A DNA stretch of 64,000 bases, taken from Pirellulales bacterium (GTDB lineage: Bacteria; Planctomycetota; Planctomycetia; Pirellulales; JACPPG01). Under the pieces are notes generated by a model. It saw only the letters and a program-made list of their open reading frames with translations, searched no databases and was not told where the DNA came from. The stretch spans positions 1 through 64,000 of the forward strand of contig DASZWQ010000069.1 in assembly GCA_035546535.1 (NCBI GenBank), read 5' to 3'. The position numbers and the translations under genes were made by a program. This document shows positions 36,067 to 50,187 of this stretch, one piece after another. Numbering within the stretch: the first letter of the stretch is position 1; each line of letters starts with the position of its first letter.

Positions 36067-36240
36067 CCTGCGCGGAAAGTAGGGTGCCGTCCGGGCGCCG
36101 GACTCGTGATCACCCGATAGAGATTTCGGGGCCCGCTTGCGAACCAGGTTGCGCTATGCCATCTCTTGCACTTTGCAGGTCGTGCCGATCGAATGGCGAC
36201 AAACACTTTGGTCCGTTTTTGGGCCGCAGGGGCGATTGAC

Positions 36241-42773: not shown

Positions 42774-44099
42774 ATGTCTGCTACGGAAACCACGGGCCGC
42801 GACAGCGTATTAGCCGCGGTGCTGTCCGACGAAGGATTCTTTCCGGCCGAGCCACACTCGATTGAAGAAACGGGCCTGGCCGTTTCGCTGATCGAGTCGT
42901 TGATTGCCAAGCAGCTATCGACGATCGGCACCTCCAGCGGCCGGGCTTTGGCCGATGCCCTGTGCCTGCCCTTCGGCGTGCTCGATCCCTTGTATCAAAG
43001 CCTGCGCACGCGGCAGATTCTGGTACACACCGGCTCGGCGCCGTTGAACGACTACTACTACACACTCACCGAACAGGGGCGCGAGCGGGCCGCGGCATTT
43101 CGCGACGCCTGTGCTTATACCGGTGCGGCGCCGGTGCCCATGTCTGACTATCTGCTGTCGGTCGAAGCGCAATCGATCCGGGCCGAAGCGCCCAAGCGTT
43201 CGAAACTAGAGAAGGCGTTCGCCGACATCTCGATCAATCCCGCGCTGTTCGACAGCCTGGGCCCGGCCGTGAACTCGGGCGCGGGCTTGTTCTTGTATGG
43301 CTCGCCTGGCAATGGCAAATCGACGCTGGCCCGGCGGATCACGGTTTGTTTTGGCCAGCACATCTGGATGCCGCAGACGTTGATCGAGGATGGGCAGATC
43401 ATCAAGCTCTTTGATAGCGTCTATCACGAAGCGGTCGAGAACAAGCAATCAACGCTGATGAAGGCGGCCTCGCACGATCGGCGGTGGGTCAAAGTGCGCC
43501 GTCCGACGGTCATCGTTGGTGGCGAGCTGACGATGGACGGCCTGGAAATTCGCCACGACCCGGTCAGCAATACCAGCGAAGCGCCGCTACAATTGAAGAG
43601 CAATTGCGGCTGTCTGTTGATCGACGACTTCGGCCGCCAGCGGATCGAGCCGCGGGAGCTTCTGAATCGCTGGATCATTCCGCTGGAAAACCGAATGGAT
43701 TTTCTCACCCTGTCGACGGGCAAGAAGATCCGCGTGCCGTTCGAGCAGTTGATCATCTTCTCGACGAACCTCGAACCCTCGGATCTGGTCGACGAAGCCT
43801 TCTTGCGGCGGATTCCCTACAAGATCCAGATCAACGACCCGGACGAATCCGAGTTTCACCATCTCTTCGAGCTGTACGCCGTGGGTTTTGGCTGCGACTA
43901 CCGCGCGGACGTGGTGGATCATCTGTTGCGGACGCACTACCGGGCCCACAATCTGCCGATGCGCCGCTGCCATCCGCGCGATCTGTTGGGCCAGGTGCGC
44001 AATTACTGCGTATACAACGGCCTGCCGATGGAAATGCGGCCCGAGTATTTCGACCGCGTGGTGAAGAGTTACTTCACGGTTCTGGCTACGGCGAAGTAA
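42774..44099 (+). CDS. AAA family ATPase with N-terminal winged-helix-like region
   Basis: A 441-residue protein. Residues ~25-120 form a winged-helix-like segment (GLAVSLIESLIAKQLSTIG, then LPFGVLDPLYQSLRTRQIL, then the wing YYYTLTEQGRERA). The ATPase core has Walker A GSPGNGKST (~176), Walker B CLLIDDFGRQRI and an arginine-finger candidate in EAFLRRIPYKI. The C-terminal lid ends with CHPRDLLGQVRNYCVYNGLP. Close relatives occur in bacteria with pilus or secretion loci; no such locus is visible here. GGAGG precedes the ATG. Its exact role is unknown. Confidence 0.85.
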   Translation: MSATETTGRDSVLAAVLSDEGFFPAEPHSIEETGLAVSLIESLIAKQLSTIGTSSGRALADALCLPFGVLDPLYQSLRTRQILVHTGSAPLNDYYYTLTEQGRERAAAFRDACAYTGAAPVPMSDYLLSVEAQSIRAEAPKRSKLEKAFADISINPALFDSLGPAVNSGAGLFLYGSPGNGKSTLARRITVCFGQHIWMPQTLIEDGQIIKLFDSVYHEAVENKQSTLMKAASHDRRWVKVRRPTVIVGGELTMDGLEIRHDPVSNTSEAPLQLKSNCGCLLIDDFGRQRIEPRELLNRWIIPLENRMDFLTLSTGKKIRVPFEQLIIFSTNLEPSDLVDEAFLRRIPYKIQINDPDESEFHHLFELYAVGFGCDYRADVVDHLLRTHYRAHNLPMRRCHPRDLLGQVRNYCVYNGLPMEMRPEYFDRVVKSYFTVLATAK

Positions 44100-45654: not shown

Positions 45655-46464
45655 TCAAATCGCCAACCACCGCACGACGTAATCCTGGTCCACCGCCAAG
45701 ATGTGGCCATCCGGCACTTCGGACCACGGCTCGTCACCGATCGCCTCCGAGGCGACCATCACGCCGGGCGTTGCTCCCGCGTTCGAACTTGTCGCCAGCG
45801 GGCCGGCGTGATTTGTCCAATACAAGGTGTGCTTCCAGCGCGAGGCAACAAAGACATGGCCGTCCGAAAGCACGAGATTCAAACGTGTCGGCTCGGCCGG
45901 CTTTGTCGCGGCGCTGCGCTCGGCCAAAATGCGAATCGCCGCGGCCATTTCGCGCATGACAAGCGTCACGTCCTGGCACGGCGCCTCGGCCGCCCGGCCG
46001 GCCTTTCGTAAGCGGCTCAAGAGCCAGAAGAACACCTGCTCGCTATCGGTGGTGCCGGCCACCTGGTGGCGCAGACCGGGATCGGTCTCTTCGACCAGCT
46101 GGGAACGCAGCTTGTCGAACCCGGTAACCGTGCCATTGTGCATGAAAATCCAGGGACCGAACGCGAACGGGTGCGCGTTGGCCACGCACAGGTCGCCGAC
46201 CGACGCCTGCCGCACGTGCGCAAGCGCTACGTTCGACGAGATCGCGCGGGCCGATGCCGAAAACTCTTTATCCTCGGGCGCCGCCGTCGGCCGGCGAATC
46301 ACCTGCGGCTTGCCGTCCTGGTAGTAGCCGATGCCCCATCCATCGCGATGCTTTTCGCCCCGCCAGTCACCGCAACTCTGAGTCAAAAGTGAATGCGGCG
46401 CATCGAGCAGCACACCGGCCAGCGGCAGCGGACGCGCGGCAATGTGGCCGTACAATCGGCACAT
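45655..46464 (-). CDS. Class II glutamine amidotransferase (YafJ/EgtC-like)
   Basis: A 269-residue Ntn-type amidotransferase. It starts MCRLYGH, so Cys2 is the nucleophile. Further markers are HRDGWGIGYYQDGKP, LAHVRQASVG and AHPFAFGPWIFMHNGTV, all conserved in GATase type II proteins such as YafJ and EgtC. It releases ammonia from glutamine or hydrolyses a gamma-glutamyl amide. It lies about 290 bases downstream of the GCS2 ligase gene on the same strand, next to a peptidase/RimK/GCS2 operon, so it may act on a product of those ligases. The ATG 46464 start is fixed by the MC motif; upstream in-frame sequence is not conserved-looking. Confidence 0.9.
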   Translation of the reverse strand: MCRLYGHIAARPLPLAGVLLDAPHSLLTQSCGDWRGEKHRDGWGIGYYQDGKPQVIRRPTAAPEDKEFSASARAISSNVALAHVRQASVGDLCVANAHPFAFGPWIFMHNGTVTGFDKLRSQLVEETDPGLRHQVAGTTDSEQVFFWLLSRLRKAGRAAEAPCQDVTLVMREMAAAIRILAERSAATKPAEPTRLNLVLSDGHVFVASRWKHTLYWTNHAGPLATSSNAGATPGVMVASEAIGDEPWSEVPDGHILAVDQDYVVRWLAI

Positions 46465-46693
46465 ATTCTGACCCGTGACAAAATAAAACTGGCGGCAAGA
46501 GAAAGGGCATCGCAGTCGACTTGCCACGACCGAGGGCCCGGAATCACAACGGAGGGAACGTGGACGAGCCGCGCGACGAAAAAGCTCGATTCCGCGGCAA
46601 ATGCCGCGATGTCCCACGCCCGAGAATTATACTGCGTGGAGTGGGAATGGCCTAGGTCAGAGCGCGTCGCGAGGTGAAGGTTCCGGCGTCTGA

Positions 46694-46756
46694 GTAGGGT
46701 GCCCTCTGGCGCCACGGTTTTATCGCTGGCGCGATGGTGCCCACACGGCACCCTAC
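46694..46756. repeat. Inverted repeat GTAGGGTGCC / GGCACCCTAC over the GCS2 stop
   Basis: Ten-base perfect arms at 46694-46703 and 46747-46756, 63 bases in all. The right arm supplies the TAG stop codon of the GCS2 gene (46753-46755). The string TAGGGTGCCG also occurs at about 36080-36090. Confidence 0.6.
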
Positions 46757-48000
46757 AAAAGCATCTCGCCGCGCGTTAGACAATCGCACAGTCGGGCAAA
46801 TTCACGCGCTTGGGCGTGGCGGTCGTCGGCTCGGTTTCCAAGCCTGTGCAAAAGGCGTCGCGCGAGCGGCCCTTCACGCAGGATCACCTCCAAGGCGCGA
46901 TCCGTCTCCGGCGTGCGTGCCGGCCGGTCGGCGACGCGCTCATTGATATGCCGCCACAGTTCGGCCGCCGTCGCTGACGACGCCTTCATACCGAACAGGC
47001 GCAAGTAGTCGGCGTCGCGGACCACGGCCTGTTCGCCCTCGCGAATCGCGGCCAGCAGGATTTCTGCTAATCGTTCGGCGGGCCAGGCCTGCTGCTCGTC
47101 GAGCGTACCAAAGCGCCCGTCGGCCAGTCCGCGCAACGTTCCGACGGCCAAACCGCAGATCGCCAAATCCGCCGCCGGGCATTCCTGGATATCGAGGACG
47201 CGAATTTCAATCGTGTTCCGCTCGAACCGCGCGATCGCACCCCGAGCGTTCAGCCATTCCTCCTGCAAGACGCCATCCGGATCGTGCGGTGCGATCTCGG
47301 CGTACAGCGTGTTCAAAATGACCTGCCGGTAATCCGCTTCGCTGAACACCGCTTCCGGAACCACGTGCCCGGTGACCGAAGGGATGCGTCGGCTGTTCGT
47401 GCGATAGACGTCCAGGCGCGTGTCGAGAATGCCGGTCGCCCGGCCGTCGACGATGGGGCTGCTGGCCGCCAAGGCGGGCAGAATCGGAAGGACAAGGCGA
47501 ATCGCGGCGTGCAACCGGCCGAACTCGGCGTCGTCGCCGAACGGCAGATTCAGATGCACGCTTTGCAGGTTCGACCAGCCATGCCCCTGACAGTTGAAGA
47601 TACGGTTAAAGGCCGCGTAGATCTCGTTGCAATCGTGCGGCCAAAGTTTGGTTTCGCGCGCGGGATCCATCCACGGATGCATACCGCCGGGCATGAGCTG
47701 AGCGCCATGTCTCGCGAGCAGTTCGTTGATGCGACGTACCTGCGCCTGGAAAGATCCGGCCAGCGGCGCCAAGGACGGCGCGGGATCGGTCGTTTTCAGT
47801 TCGACGACGTGGGCCACCAGTTCGTTCGACCAGGAGACGTCGCCTGCCTCGACGTCGCCGACGTATTCCTCGCCGCCGGTCGCGTCGCGCATCAGCTCGT
47901 CGGCAATAGGCCGCACGTCGAGCGACTGCGCATCGACGATCATGTATTCCAGCTCGACGCCGAAAGCCTCGAACAAACGTAGTCGCAGGGCGGTGCTCAC
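46753..48000 (-). CDS. Glutamate-cysteine ligase-like (GCS2) carboxylate-amine ligase
   Basis: A 415-residue member of the GCS2/YbdK family, which joins a carboxylate to an amine using ATP. Core motifs are GVELEYMIVD, GGMHPWMDP and GHGWSNLQSVHLNLPFGDD. The start is GTG 48000, overlapping the TGA of the RimK-like gene as GTGA, with GAGG seven bases before, so the two are translationally coupled. It need not make gamma-glutamylcysteine: no glutathione synthetase is present, and the partner is a RimK-like ligase. The stop codon lies in an inverted repeat (46694-46756). A class II amidotransferase gene follows. Confidence 0.88.
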   Translation of the reverse strand: MSTALRLRLFEAFGVELEYMIVDAQSLDVRPIADELMRDATGGEEYVGDVEAGDVSWSNELVAHVVELKTTDPAPSLAPLAGSFQAQVRRINELLARHGAQLMPGGMHPWMDPARETKLWPHDCNEIYAAFNRIFNCQGHGWSNLQSVHLNLPFGDDAEFGRLHAAIRLVLPILPALAASSPIVDGRATGILDTRLDVYRTNSRRIPSVTGHVVPEAVFSEADYRQVILNTLYAEIAPHDPDGVLQEEWLNARGAIARFERNTIEIRVLDIQECPAADLAICGLAVGTLRGLADGRFGTLDEQQAWPAERLAEILLAAIREGEQAVVRDADYLRLFGMKASSATAAELWRHINERVADRPARTPETDRALEVILREGPLARRLLHRLGNRADDRHAQAREFARLCDCLTRGEMLL

Positions 48001-49466
48001 GAGATCCTCTTGCCAGCCTTCGTGGCTTCGATGCGTTCCAGAAATACATCCATCATGCGGGTGTACAACTCGTTCTTCAGAAAGTTGTCTTCCACGCCGG
48101 CGTCGATGTTCGGGTTGTCGTTGACTTCGATGACGTAGCAGTGCCGGCCGCTCTGTTTGATGTCGACGCCATACAGGCCATCGCCGATCAAGTTCGCAGC
48201 CTTTAGCGCCGTGCTGATCACCTGGCGCGGCGCCTGCTGCACGGGAAAGGTTTCGGTGCGGCCGTAGCGGCGCTTGCCCGACGCTTCGTTCTTCACGATC
48301 TGCCAATGATCCGTCGCCATGTGATACTTGCAGGCGTACAAAGGCTGGCGGTCGAAAATGCCGACACGCCAGTCGTAAGCCGTGGGCAGAAACTCCTGGG
48401 CGATCAGCAGGTCGGATTTTTCCAGGAACTTTTCGGCACAGTCGTCGAGCATCTGCTGGCTTTCGACTTTCACCACTCCCAAGGAAAAGGCGGCATCCGG
48501 CTGCTTGAGCACGCAGGGGAAGCCGAGTTCATCCCCGATCGTGCCGATGTTGTCCTTGTTTACGATTACGGTGCGCGGGATGGCGATCTTGTGCCGGGAC
48601 AATAGCTCGGCCAGGTAGACCTTGTTCGAGCAGCGCAAGATCGATTCCGGATCGTCGACGACGACCAGCCCTTCCATCGCGGCGCGCCGCGCGAAGCGGA
48701 AGGTGTGGTGGGCCACGGCCGTGGTCTCGCGAATGAACAGCGCGTCGAACTCGGCGAGCCGGGCATAATCGTCCCGCCCGATCAGGTCGGTTTGCAGCCC
48801 AGCGGCCTCGGCGGCGCGGACGAAGCGGTCGAGTGCTTTCTCGTCCGACGGCGGCAAAGGCTCGTCGGGATTGACCAGGATCGCCAGGTCGTACTTGGCG
48901 AGGTTGCGCTTGCGCGGCGAAGCCCGGCGACCGGAAAAATGCTCGGTCGCCACGTCCAGCACGAACGGCCGATGTTGCGGCGGAATGCCGTCGACCGGCA
49001 CGGGTCCGATCTGCCGCAACTGCCACTTGCCGTTCTTGGTGAATTGCGCCCGCAAGAGCGGCGCCTGAAACAGGTTGAACAAGTGCAGGCTCAAGCGATC
49101 ATAGCGCCGCGCCAGGTTGCGGCCGAAGTAGATACTGAGCGTGAACTTGTCCGATTCGATAGGCGCCAAGCTGGATTGAATCAAATCATCCAGGTCATCC
49201 GAGACGAAGCGCACCACGGTCTGCGACTTCATGTCCTGGATGGTCATGATGTTCGGCAGCGGCTTGTGCCCCCGCGCGGTCGCCAGCAGCGTCACGTAGT
49301 AGCCCAGGCTTTGATAGCGGTAGGAACGGCACAGGTTAAAGACCTTGGCCCCGCGGACCTCGCCGTACTCGGGCTTGGTGAGGTAGCTTTTCGCATCGAT
49401 GACCGCCACCCCCGGTATTTGAAACGGCCACTCGCTGACGTTGTTAACGACGATCAATACCGGCAT
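47997..49466 (-). CDS. RimK-like ATP-grasp ligase with N-terminal RLAN-type domain
   Basis: A 489-residue ATP-grasp amidoligase. The first ~200 residues (PVLIVVNNVSEWPFQIPGV, VFNLCRSYRYQSLGYYVTLLA) match the domain found at the N-terminus of some RimK-like proteins. The ATP-grasp region (~260-480) has CSNKVYLAELLSRHKI, FPCVLKQPDAAFSLGV, LLIAQEFLP, and the metal-binding YVIEVNDNPNID. Such enzymes add amino acids to a peptide or protein. AAGGAAG precedes ATG 49466, which overlaps the upstream peptidase gene by 23 bases, and the 3' end overlaps the GCS2 start. Confidence 0.9.
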   Translation of the reverse strand: MPVLIVVNNVSEWPFQIPGVAVIDAKSYLTKPEYGEVRGAKVFNLCRSYRYQSLGYYVTLLATARGHKPLPNIMTIQDMKSQTVVRFVSDDLDDLIQSSLAPIESDKFTLSIYFGRNLARRYDRLSLHLFNLFQAPLLRAQFTKNGKWQLRQIGPVPVDGIPPQHRPFVLDVATEHFSGRRASPRKRNLAKYDLAILVNPDEPLPPSDEKALDRFVRAAEAAGLQTDLIGRDDYARLAEFDALFIRETTAVAHHTFRFARRAAMEGLVVVDDPESILRCSNKVYLAELLSRHKIAIPRTVIVNKDNIGTIGDELGFPCVLKQPDAAFSLGVVKVESQQMLDDCAEKFLEKSDLLIAQEFLPTAYDWRVGIFDRQPLYACKYHMATDHWQIVKNEASGKRRYGRTETFPVQQAPRQVISTALKAANLIGDGLYGVDIKQSGRHCYVIEVNDNPNIDAGVEDNFLKNELYTRMMDVFLERIEATKAGKRIS

Positions 49467-50187
49467 GACTTCCTTGTTTGCGCTGCTTGCGCGGTTCAAT
49501 GATCAAGAGGTTCGCATCGTAGGTGACTATGCCCAGCAGGATGGCGCAGATGACGCGATCGATGCTGACCACGTAGCGGTTGTCGCCGGCCACGGGGTTG
49601 GGGGCCAATGGATCAGCGACCAGGACTTCGCGCGTGTCACGGTTGTATCCGCACAGGACCACGAAATGCCCCGTCGGTTCGCCGCGCACGCTGTCCGGCT
49701 CGCACGTGGGGCCATATTCGCGGGCGGCCCGGTGCAGATACGTGGCGCTTAAGCCCGTCAACACCGGAATCGAACGGCTCAGATATTTGCGAATCAAATG
49801 CCCTGTCAGGTCTTCGAAGCGCAGCTGGCCGCCGCGTTCGAGAAACTCGAGATAGGCCTGGGTCGCCACCCGCAATTTCGGGGACGACTTGTACTCCCTC
49901 TGCTGGACCAGCAACTCGGCCAGGTCGGCGCGGCGCGGCCGGAACCAGGTCGGGTCGAACAACTGCAGATTATACGTGTAGATTGTTGCGGAGTAGCCGC
50001 GGCGCAGGGCGTGACAGGCCAGAAAAACGTCGAGCGTTCCTCCCCCGTCGACTCGTCCGACCTCGGAGATGACCTGTTCCAGATCGATCTGGTCGCCGTG
50101 ATAGCGATAGACGGAGTGCAAGCACGTCGGACCACAGGTGTAGTCGTCCGGCTGCGGCAACATCTCGACAATGAGGTTTGTATCCAA
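49444..50187 (-). CDS. Papain-like peptidase of the C39 family type
   Basis: A 247-residue cysteine peptidase-like protein, first gene of the amidoligase operon. The nucleophile motif is DDYTCGPTCLHSVY (Cys18), the His region GHFVVLCGYN, and the third residue lies in VLVADPLAP. In bacteriocin exporters C39 domains remove leader peptides; here there is no transporter part, so it may trim a peptide made or modified by the ligases. I chose TTG 50187 because GGGAGG lies about 11 bases upstream; ATG 50163 is an alternative. The open frame upstream to 50301 has no such support. Confidence 0.82.
   Translation of the reverse strand: MDTNLIVEMLPQPDDYTCGPTCLHSVYRYHGDQIDLEQVISEVGRVDGGGTLDVFLACHALRRGYSATIYTYNLQLFDPTWFRPRRADLAELLVQQREYKSSPKLRVATQAYLEFLERGGQLRFEDLTGHLIRKYLSRSIPVLTGLSATYLHRAAREYGPTCEPDSVRGEPTGHFVVLCGYNRDTREVLVADPLAPNPVAGDNRYVVSIDRVICAILLGIVTYDANLLIIEPRKQRKQGSHAGIDRR

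Follow-up and report, generated by a model that had tools for sequence, protein, structure and literature searches.

The window analysed here is the stretch of 64,000 nucleotides at the beginning of contig DASZWQ010000069.1 from a Pirellulales bacterium (assembly GCA_035546535.1). It carries three overlapping genes, coding for a C39-like cysteine peptidase, a RimK-like ATP-grasp ligase with an N-terminal RLAN domain, and a carboxylate-amine ligase of the glutamate-cysteine-ligase-like GCS2 family. The peptidase-RimK-GCS2 trio is a real conserved unit. Its enzymes look suited to ribosome-free joining of amino acids into a small peptide with subsequent trimming, and the function that we favour, with moderate confidence, is a cytosolic two-ligase, non-ribosomal route to a short glutamyl peptide or amide, whose product is trimmed, transferred or recycled by hydrolases. 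The observed basis of this assignment is the gene order, the overlaps and fusions of the genes, the conserved catalytic residues and the folds. A soluble non-ribosomal pathway fits best because the ligases are coupled or fused, a peptidase and an amidohydrolase accompany them, and neither a recurrent precursor nor another widely recurring neighbour was found.

The RLAN domain was detected in 65 of the 246 genomes that sampled the phylum and in 23 of 117 genomes of the order. Within the genus it is present in the genome of the window and in three others; a fifth genome (77% complete) gave no match. The phylum sample comprised the stretches around 60 RLAN matches together with the window (61 loci; G232, G210, G113 and G108 were left out). 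RimK and GCS2 occur together in 47 of these 61 loci, and 30 of the 47 also carry a gene for an N-formylglutamate amidohydrolase-like protein (FGase). A scan of named genomes added 80 loci, which are the best 80 of 584 and so favour close kin. Together with the order-level and plasmid loci the collection amounts to 164 loci, or 155 distinct ones. The order peptidase-RimK-GCS2 is kept in 115 of the 155 distinct RLAN-RimK loci, being followed by FGase in 74 and standing as the three genes in 41. The remaining forms are RimK-GCS2 (10 loci), RimK-GCS2-FGase (3), a C39 domain fused to a GNAT acetyltransferase without GCS2 (14), peptidase-RimK (7) and RimK alone (6), some of the short forms being truncated at the end of a contig.

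In the tree of RimK (96 rows) 15 groups of phylum rank are represented, and 31 label changes are required against a minimum of 14; this is compatible with both old age and transfer and proves neither. Culturable hosts of the trio include Nitrosomonas, Thiobacillus, Pontibacter and Marivirga (among the best 80 of 584). The possibility that the cluster is mobile cargo was rejected: phages gave no matches at 1e-10, and only 11 of 72,556 plasmid records matched, seven of them from Azospirillum. Some loci have features of their own. By our own reading of the sequences, the cluster lies downstream of genes resembling arginine biosynthesis genes in four Pontibacter loci (L149, L156, L165 and L166). 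Locus L133 has two consecutive GCS2 frames; in L161 another RLAN-RimK frame lies farther downstream. A Pseudomonas aeruginosa plasmid (L172:5836-7491) bears a lone RLAN-RimK gene near pagP, a glutamate/aspartate ABC transporter and ggt.

The genes of the cluster are closely coupled. Junctions that overlap or are separated by at most 30 bases account for 108 of 122 between peptidase and RimK, 104 of 122 between RimK and GCS2 (plus 5 fusions) and 54 of 57 between GCS2 and FGase (the gap being measurable in 57 of 77 loci); start codons were picked so as to come closest to an overlap of 4 bases, a choice leaning towards overlap. The median peptidase-RimK gap is -4 over the 122 measured loci, and the RimK-GCS2 junction is exactly -4 in 61 of 122. 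In five planctomycete loci (L081, L082, L083, L085 and L086) RimK and GCS2 form a single open frame of ~1000 amino acids, and a Pfam scan of two such fusions detected RLAN, RimK and GCS2 in both. Loci L081, L083, L085 and L086 form, together with L084, one clade of the RimK tree, which has a midpoint root only. The pairwise distances of the partners are correlated, with r of 0.858 for RimK-GCS2, 0.778 for C39-RimK and 0.672 for GCS2-FGase; these values, from which relatedness was not removed, partly reflect shared ancestry.

Comparison of 248 short ATG-started open reading frames of 20-90 residues in the region upstream of the peptidase revealed no recurrent precursor. The largest family of such frames (7 loci) resembles, by our own reading, the peptidase start read in another frame. 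A ribosomally synthesised and post-translationally modified peptide of the graspetide kind appears less likely, as no precursor frame recurs upstream of the peptidase among the ATG-started frames of this length. The neighbour clusterings likewise contained no further gene recurring widely beside the cluster.

The arrangement in the window is summarised in Table 1. A sequence-only reading of this DNA had described four genes, namely the trio and a class II amidotransferase, with the first three overlapping; the families and coordinates were confirmed by Pfam and by reading of the sequence, as were both overlaps. The ATG of the RimK-like gene (49466-49464) lies inside the peptidase frame, which ends at 49444, and the GTG of GCS2 (48000-47998) and the TGA of RimK (47999-47997) lie together in GTGA. 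The start of the peptidase, TTG at 50187, is guessed; its frame stays open upstream as far as 50301. For the amidotransferase the best start is the ATG at 46464, which gives MCRLYG with Cys at position 2. The distance between GCS2 and the amidotransferase places the latter outside the overlapping block. An inverted-repeat-like pattern GGGTGCC...GGCACCC is present in the gap following GCS2 (46700-46753); a search for it gave 2 matches against 0.22 expected, with one weaker match at 36082, and no second copy of the gap part 46640-46752 was found in the same genome.

Table 1. Features of the cluster in the window (positions count from the first nucleotide of the window).
Feature	Position	Strand	Evidence
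C39-like (papain-fold) cysteine peptidase	49444..50187	-	PF13529, PF03412; kept catalytic residues
RLAN domain + RimK-like ATP-grasp ligase	47997..49466	-	PF14401, PF08443; AlphaFold2 model; fold search
GCS2 (glutamate-cysteine-ligase-like) carboxylate-amine ligase	46753..48000	-	PF04107; AlphaFold2 model; fold search
EgtC-like class II glutamine amidotransferase-like (N-terminal nucleophile, Ntn) protein, occasional neighbour	45655..46464	-	PF13230; below EgtC cut-off
Overlap of peptidase and RimK frames, 23 bases	49444..49466	-	read from sequence
GTGA overlap, RimK stop/GCS2 start	47997..48000	-	read from sequence
Gap between GCS2 and amidotransferase, 288 bases	46465..46752	-	read from sequence

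All four proteins are assigned to families, and none of them reaches the cut-off of a curated NCBIfam model that stands for a named enzyme. The peptidase matches Peptidase_C39_2 (PF13529, E 1.5e-11, 45.5 bits) and PF03412 (E 4.9e-6). The RimK-like protein consists of an N-terminal RLAN domain (PF14401, E 1e-46, 158.7 bits at a cut-off of 25) and a RimK domain (PF08443, E 5.9e-10, 39.5 bits at a cut-off of 21). Its score with the RimK family alpha-L-glutamate ligase model TIGR00768 is 74 bits, below the cut-off of 143.4, and NAGGN synthetase (TIGR03103) is absent among its 19 matches at E 0.01. GCS2 (PF04107, E 1.8e-34, 119.9 bits), besides which its genome gave no other PF04107 protein, stays below the cut-offs of the YbdK family (TIGR02050, 56.9 of 176.4 bits) and of EgtA (TIGR03444, 23.1 of 370.8 bits). 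The amidotransferase matches GATase_4 (PF13230, E 8.3e-25) and reaches 147.9 bits with EgtC (TIGR03442; 147.6 in the genome search) at a cut-off of 218.65.

The AlphaFold2 model of GCS2 has a mean predicted local distance difference test score (pLDDT) of 96.2. Its closest structural matches are YbdK (1tt4, Z 39.2 over 347 aligned residues; 1r8g, Z 39.1 over 349; both at 2.5 A) and the plant glutamate-cysteine ligase 2gwc (Z 34.6, 366 residues, 3.1 A), followed by GshF/GshA (Z 23-25) and by Dop/PafA, whose best chains reach Z ~20. In the model of the RimK-like protein (mean pLDDT 91.6) residues 188-486, which the fold-search rows cover, are best matched by ArgX, LysX and RimK (Z 25-26.5), GshB being lower (1gsa, Z 21.3); the RLAN part (1-187) lies outside these rows. 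As judged from the models, both ligases possess ligase folds, although such likeness alone proves no function.

The catalytic residues are almost invariant across the peptidase, RimK-like and GCS2 relatives, their roles being assigned from general knowledge of the folds. The peptidase keeps His and Asp in all 113 distinct rows, Cys in 112 (1 gap) and Gln in 111 (2 gaps). The ATP and metal residues Lys, Lys, Asp, Glu, Asn and Arg of the RimK-like protein are present in 128 of 128 rows and one further Glu in 103. The metal glutamates of GCS2 are found in 124 of 125 rows (1 gap each) and the other positions in 123-125. In FGase the His, Asp and Glu columns are invariant (22-row alignment). The description of two ligases of different folds next to a papain-like peptidase is borne out by the models of the ligases and by the intact catalytic residues.

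Glutathione is synthesised by a glutamate-cysteine ligase and the ATP-grasp enzyme GshB. The cluster resembles this system in that a ligase of the GCS fold is coupled with one of the ATP-grasp type, the two sometimes sharing a single chain. It differs from it in that RimK comes first in the fusions (the reverse of the order in GshF), the ATP-grasp part is nearer to ArgX/LysX/RimK than to GshB, and a peptidase and FGase are added. The genome of the window has a best GshB (PF02955) match of E 2.6e-10, and 23 of the 246 phylum genomes have one at 3e-37 or better, which is our own threshold for a strong match. Three of the 47 RimK and GCS2 loci (G118, G137 and G150) come from these 23 genomes. Among named isolates with the trio a strong match is found in 6 of 11, or in 7 of 12 when L139 is counted, an isolate excluded from the former number with RimK alone on its contig. 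As the cluster is found both with and without a strong GshB match, it is not simply a glutathione pathway.

The same data bear on the possibility that GCS2 makes gamma-glutamylcysteine only, and on a low-molecular-weight thiol pathway in which GCS2 would form gamma-Glu-Cys, RimK would add a third residue and the papain-fold enzyme would act like phytochelatin synthase. Such a pathway would agree with the structural proximity of GCS2 to YbdK and the plant ligase, and with its being the sole PF04107 protein found in a genome that has no strong GshB match. Nevertheless, the compound could not be a replacement thiol in the six isolates with strong GshB, and GCS2 falls far short of both the EgtA and YbdK cut-offs, so that we consider a thiol product very unlikely.

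In the sequence-only reading the amidotransferase was a standing fourth member of the cluster; the usual fourth gene is in fact FGase (PF05013), which follows GCS2 on the same strand in 77 of the 155 distinct loci, 74 with the full peptidase-RimK-GCS2 order and 3 with no peptidase detected. The family assignment is illustrated by the FGase of L042 (PF05013, E 3e-22) and by the annotation of a Legionella adelaidensis plasmid, which lists in order a RimK family protein, a glutamate-cysteine ligase family protein and an N-formylglutamate amidohydrolase. No FGase was found beside the trio in the window or in its three same-genus loci, and PF05013 gave 0 matches in the whole genome of the window (97% complete; the Caulobacter control was positive).

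Of the 164 loci, only 8 have the amidotransferase next to the cluster: the window and three loci of the same genus, where the strand is the same, and four distant ones, where it is the opposite one. Conservation as a unit thus holds for the trio and fails for the set of four. A four-gene operon is rejected as a general rule on this count. It could still be suggested that the EgtC-like amidotransferase performs a dedicated last step, removal of a gamma-glutamyl group: in the window and its three same-genus loci it follows GCS2 where FGase is missing, as if the slot had been exchanged, and it recurs next to the cluster in the four distant loci. Synteny within one genus is, however, weak evidence, three of the distant loci (L106, L109 and L111) carry FGase as well, and in the window the gene is separated by the 288-base gap. 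Moreover, a second EgtC-like class II amidotransferase is encoded elsewhere in the same genome (contig C110, 8402-9190, L206; 179.4 bits to TIGR03442). We regard a dedicated last step of this kind as quite improbable.

The pairing of a GCS2 fold with an EgtC-like protein recalls ergothioneine synthesis, where EgtA is a GCS2 ligase and EgtC a class II amidohydrolase. The two proteins of the window are below the EgtA and EgtC cut-offs, however, and the EgtC-like gene is usually absent from the cluster. Ergothioneine was rejected, no EgtB-type PF03781 match being found beside the second EgtC-like gene on contig C110 (9,492 bases), with EgtD outside the search. Two gammaproteobacterial amidotransferase loci (L098:6044-6388 and L106:9443-9784) both have, by our own reading, a small Rieske-like protein after the cluster.

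A sister form of the cluster is represented by 14 of the 155 distinct loci (among them L173:4733-7467, L032, L033, L034, L076, L078, L079, L080 and L147), where RLAN-RimK is partnered, with GCS2 absent, by a protein that unites a GNAT acetyltransferase with a related C39 domain. The C39 domains of the two forms are homologous (hhalign probability 96.3, E 1.6e-9). The one such protein scanned, from Azospirillum (L173), consists of GNAT and DUF3335 by Pfam, and its GNAT part passes the RimI model with 87.4 against 86.4 bits. DUF3335 is often fused to GNAT domains according to PMC10318531. RLAN-RimK and a related C39 domain are thus shared, while the acetyltransferase replaces GCS2 and FGase of the trio form. 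The change of partner between GCS2 and GNAT needs 4 steps in the tree, with the GNAT loci L147 and L157 inside the GCS2 clade (in L157 GNAT-C39 is not directly beside RimK). Replacement of GCS2 and FGase by GNAT suggests that the task of GCS2 is acylation of an amine, that is, amine capping. Tentatively, the product may belong to a widespread, uncatalogued class of capped glutamyl peptides: RLAN-RimK would extend the carboxyl end, the amine cap would be gamma-glutamyl (by GCS2) or acetyl (by GNAT-C39), and FGase or the EgtC-like enzyme would uncap the first form.

RimI is a protein N-acetyltransferase, and this close pass by one protein, as well as the fold common to GCS2, PafA and Dop, could also be read in favour of reversible protein modification, in which RimK and GCS2 would add amino acids to protein ends or side chains, to be taken off or uncovered by C39 and FGase in the way that RimB opposes the action of RimK on RpsF. 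The RimK/RimB (RpsF glutamylation) and RloABC systems of Pseudomonas have a RimK-type ATP-grasp ligase and a protease in one operon, according to PMC12239564; the proteases described there are retropepsin-like, no GCS2 is described in the passages concerned, and the RimK-like protein of the window is below the RimK cut-off. The GCS2 model is, besides, far nearer to YbdK and glutamate-cysteine ligase than to PafA/Dop, and no target gene recurs beside the cluster, though a target need not be linked. On balance protein modification appears rather unlikely.

Returning to the two-ligase pathway for a small glutamyl compound, we infer the small substrate, the order of steps, glutamate as the donor, amine capping and the roles of the hydrolases. 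GCS2 would activate a carboxylate for coupling to an amine, the gamma-carboxylate of glutamate being the most likely one; the RLAN-RimK enzyme would attach an amino acid to a carboxylate on the same small molecule, and a short glutamyl peptide or amide would result from the work of both. This compound would be trimmed, transferred or recycled by the C39-like enzyme, joined in many relatives by FGase, and in the genus of the window the EgtC-like Ntn enzyme may perhaps take the role of FGase. No report of the cluster or of its product was found in the literature as judged by titles, abstract openings and term counts. Several points weigh against the pathway. Most loci were picked by similarity to the RimK of the window, which biases the sample towards finding the trio. 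Among 135 GCS2 loci, 53 have no FGase in its slot (7 of them with less than 800 bases of sequence left); as the slot is often empty and the genome of the window has no FGase, this enzyme is not essential. Locus L093 has a GNAT-C39 profile match two genes upstream of a full trio, contrary to a strict swap of partners. Finally, the predicted kinship of GCS2 with the PafA/Dop fold and the fact that RimK itself modifies a protein would allow for a protein target.

Iyer, Abhiman, Burroughs and Aravind reportedly predicted in 2009 a peptide-making gene association of RLAN-ATP-grasp, GCS2 and papain-like peptidase. The genes of that association, RLAN fused to a RimK-like ATP-grasp domain with GCS2 and a papain-fold peptidase adjoining, are present here, and we take the cluster for a further member of this predicted kind. 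The FGase partner, the RimK-GCS2 fusions and the GNAT sister form are the likeliest additions to it. The retention of the operon order across numerous phylum-rank groups, 15 of which appear in the RimK tree, points to a probably common, uncatalogued intracellular compound, and the fusion proteins and culturable hosts render the product directly testable.

Outside the cluster, the window encodes at 42774-44099 (+) a protein that has no Pfam match at E 0.01 and contains, by our own reading, a P-loop-like stretch, LFLYGSPGNGKSTLARR.

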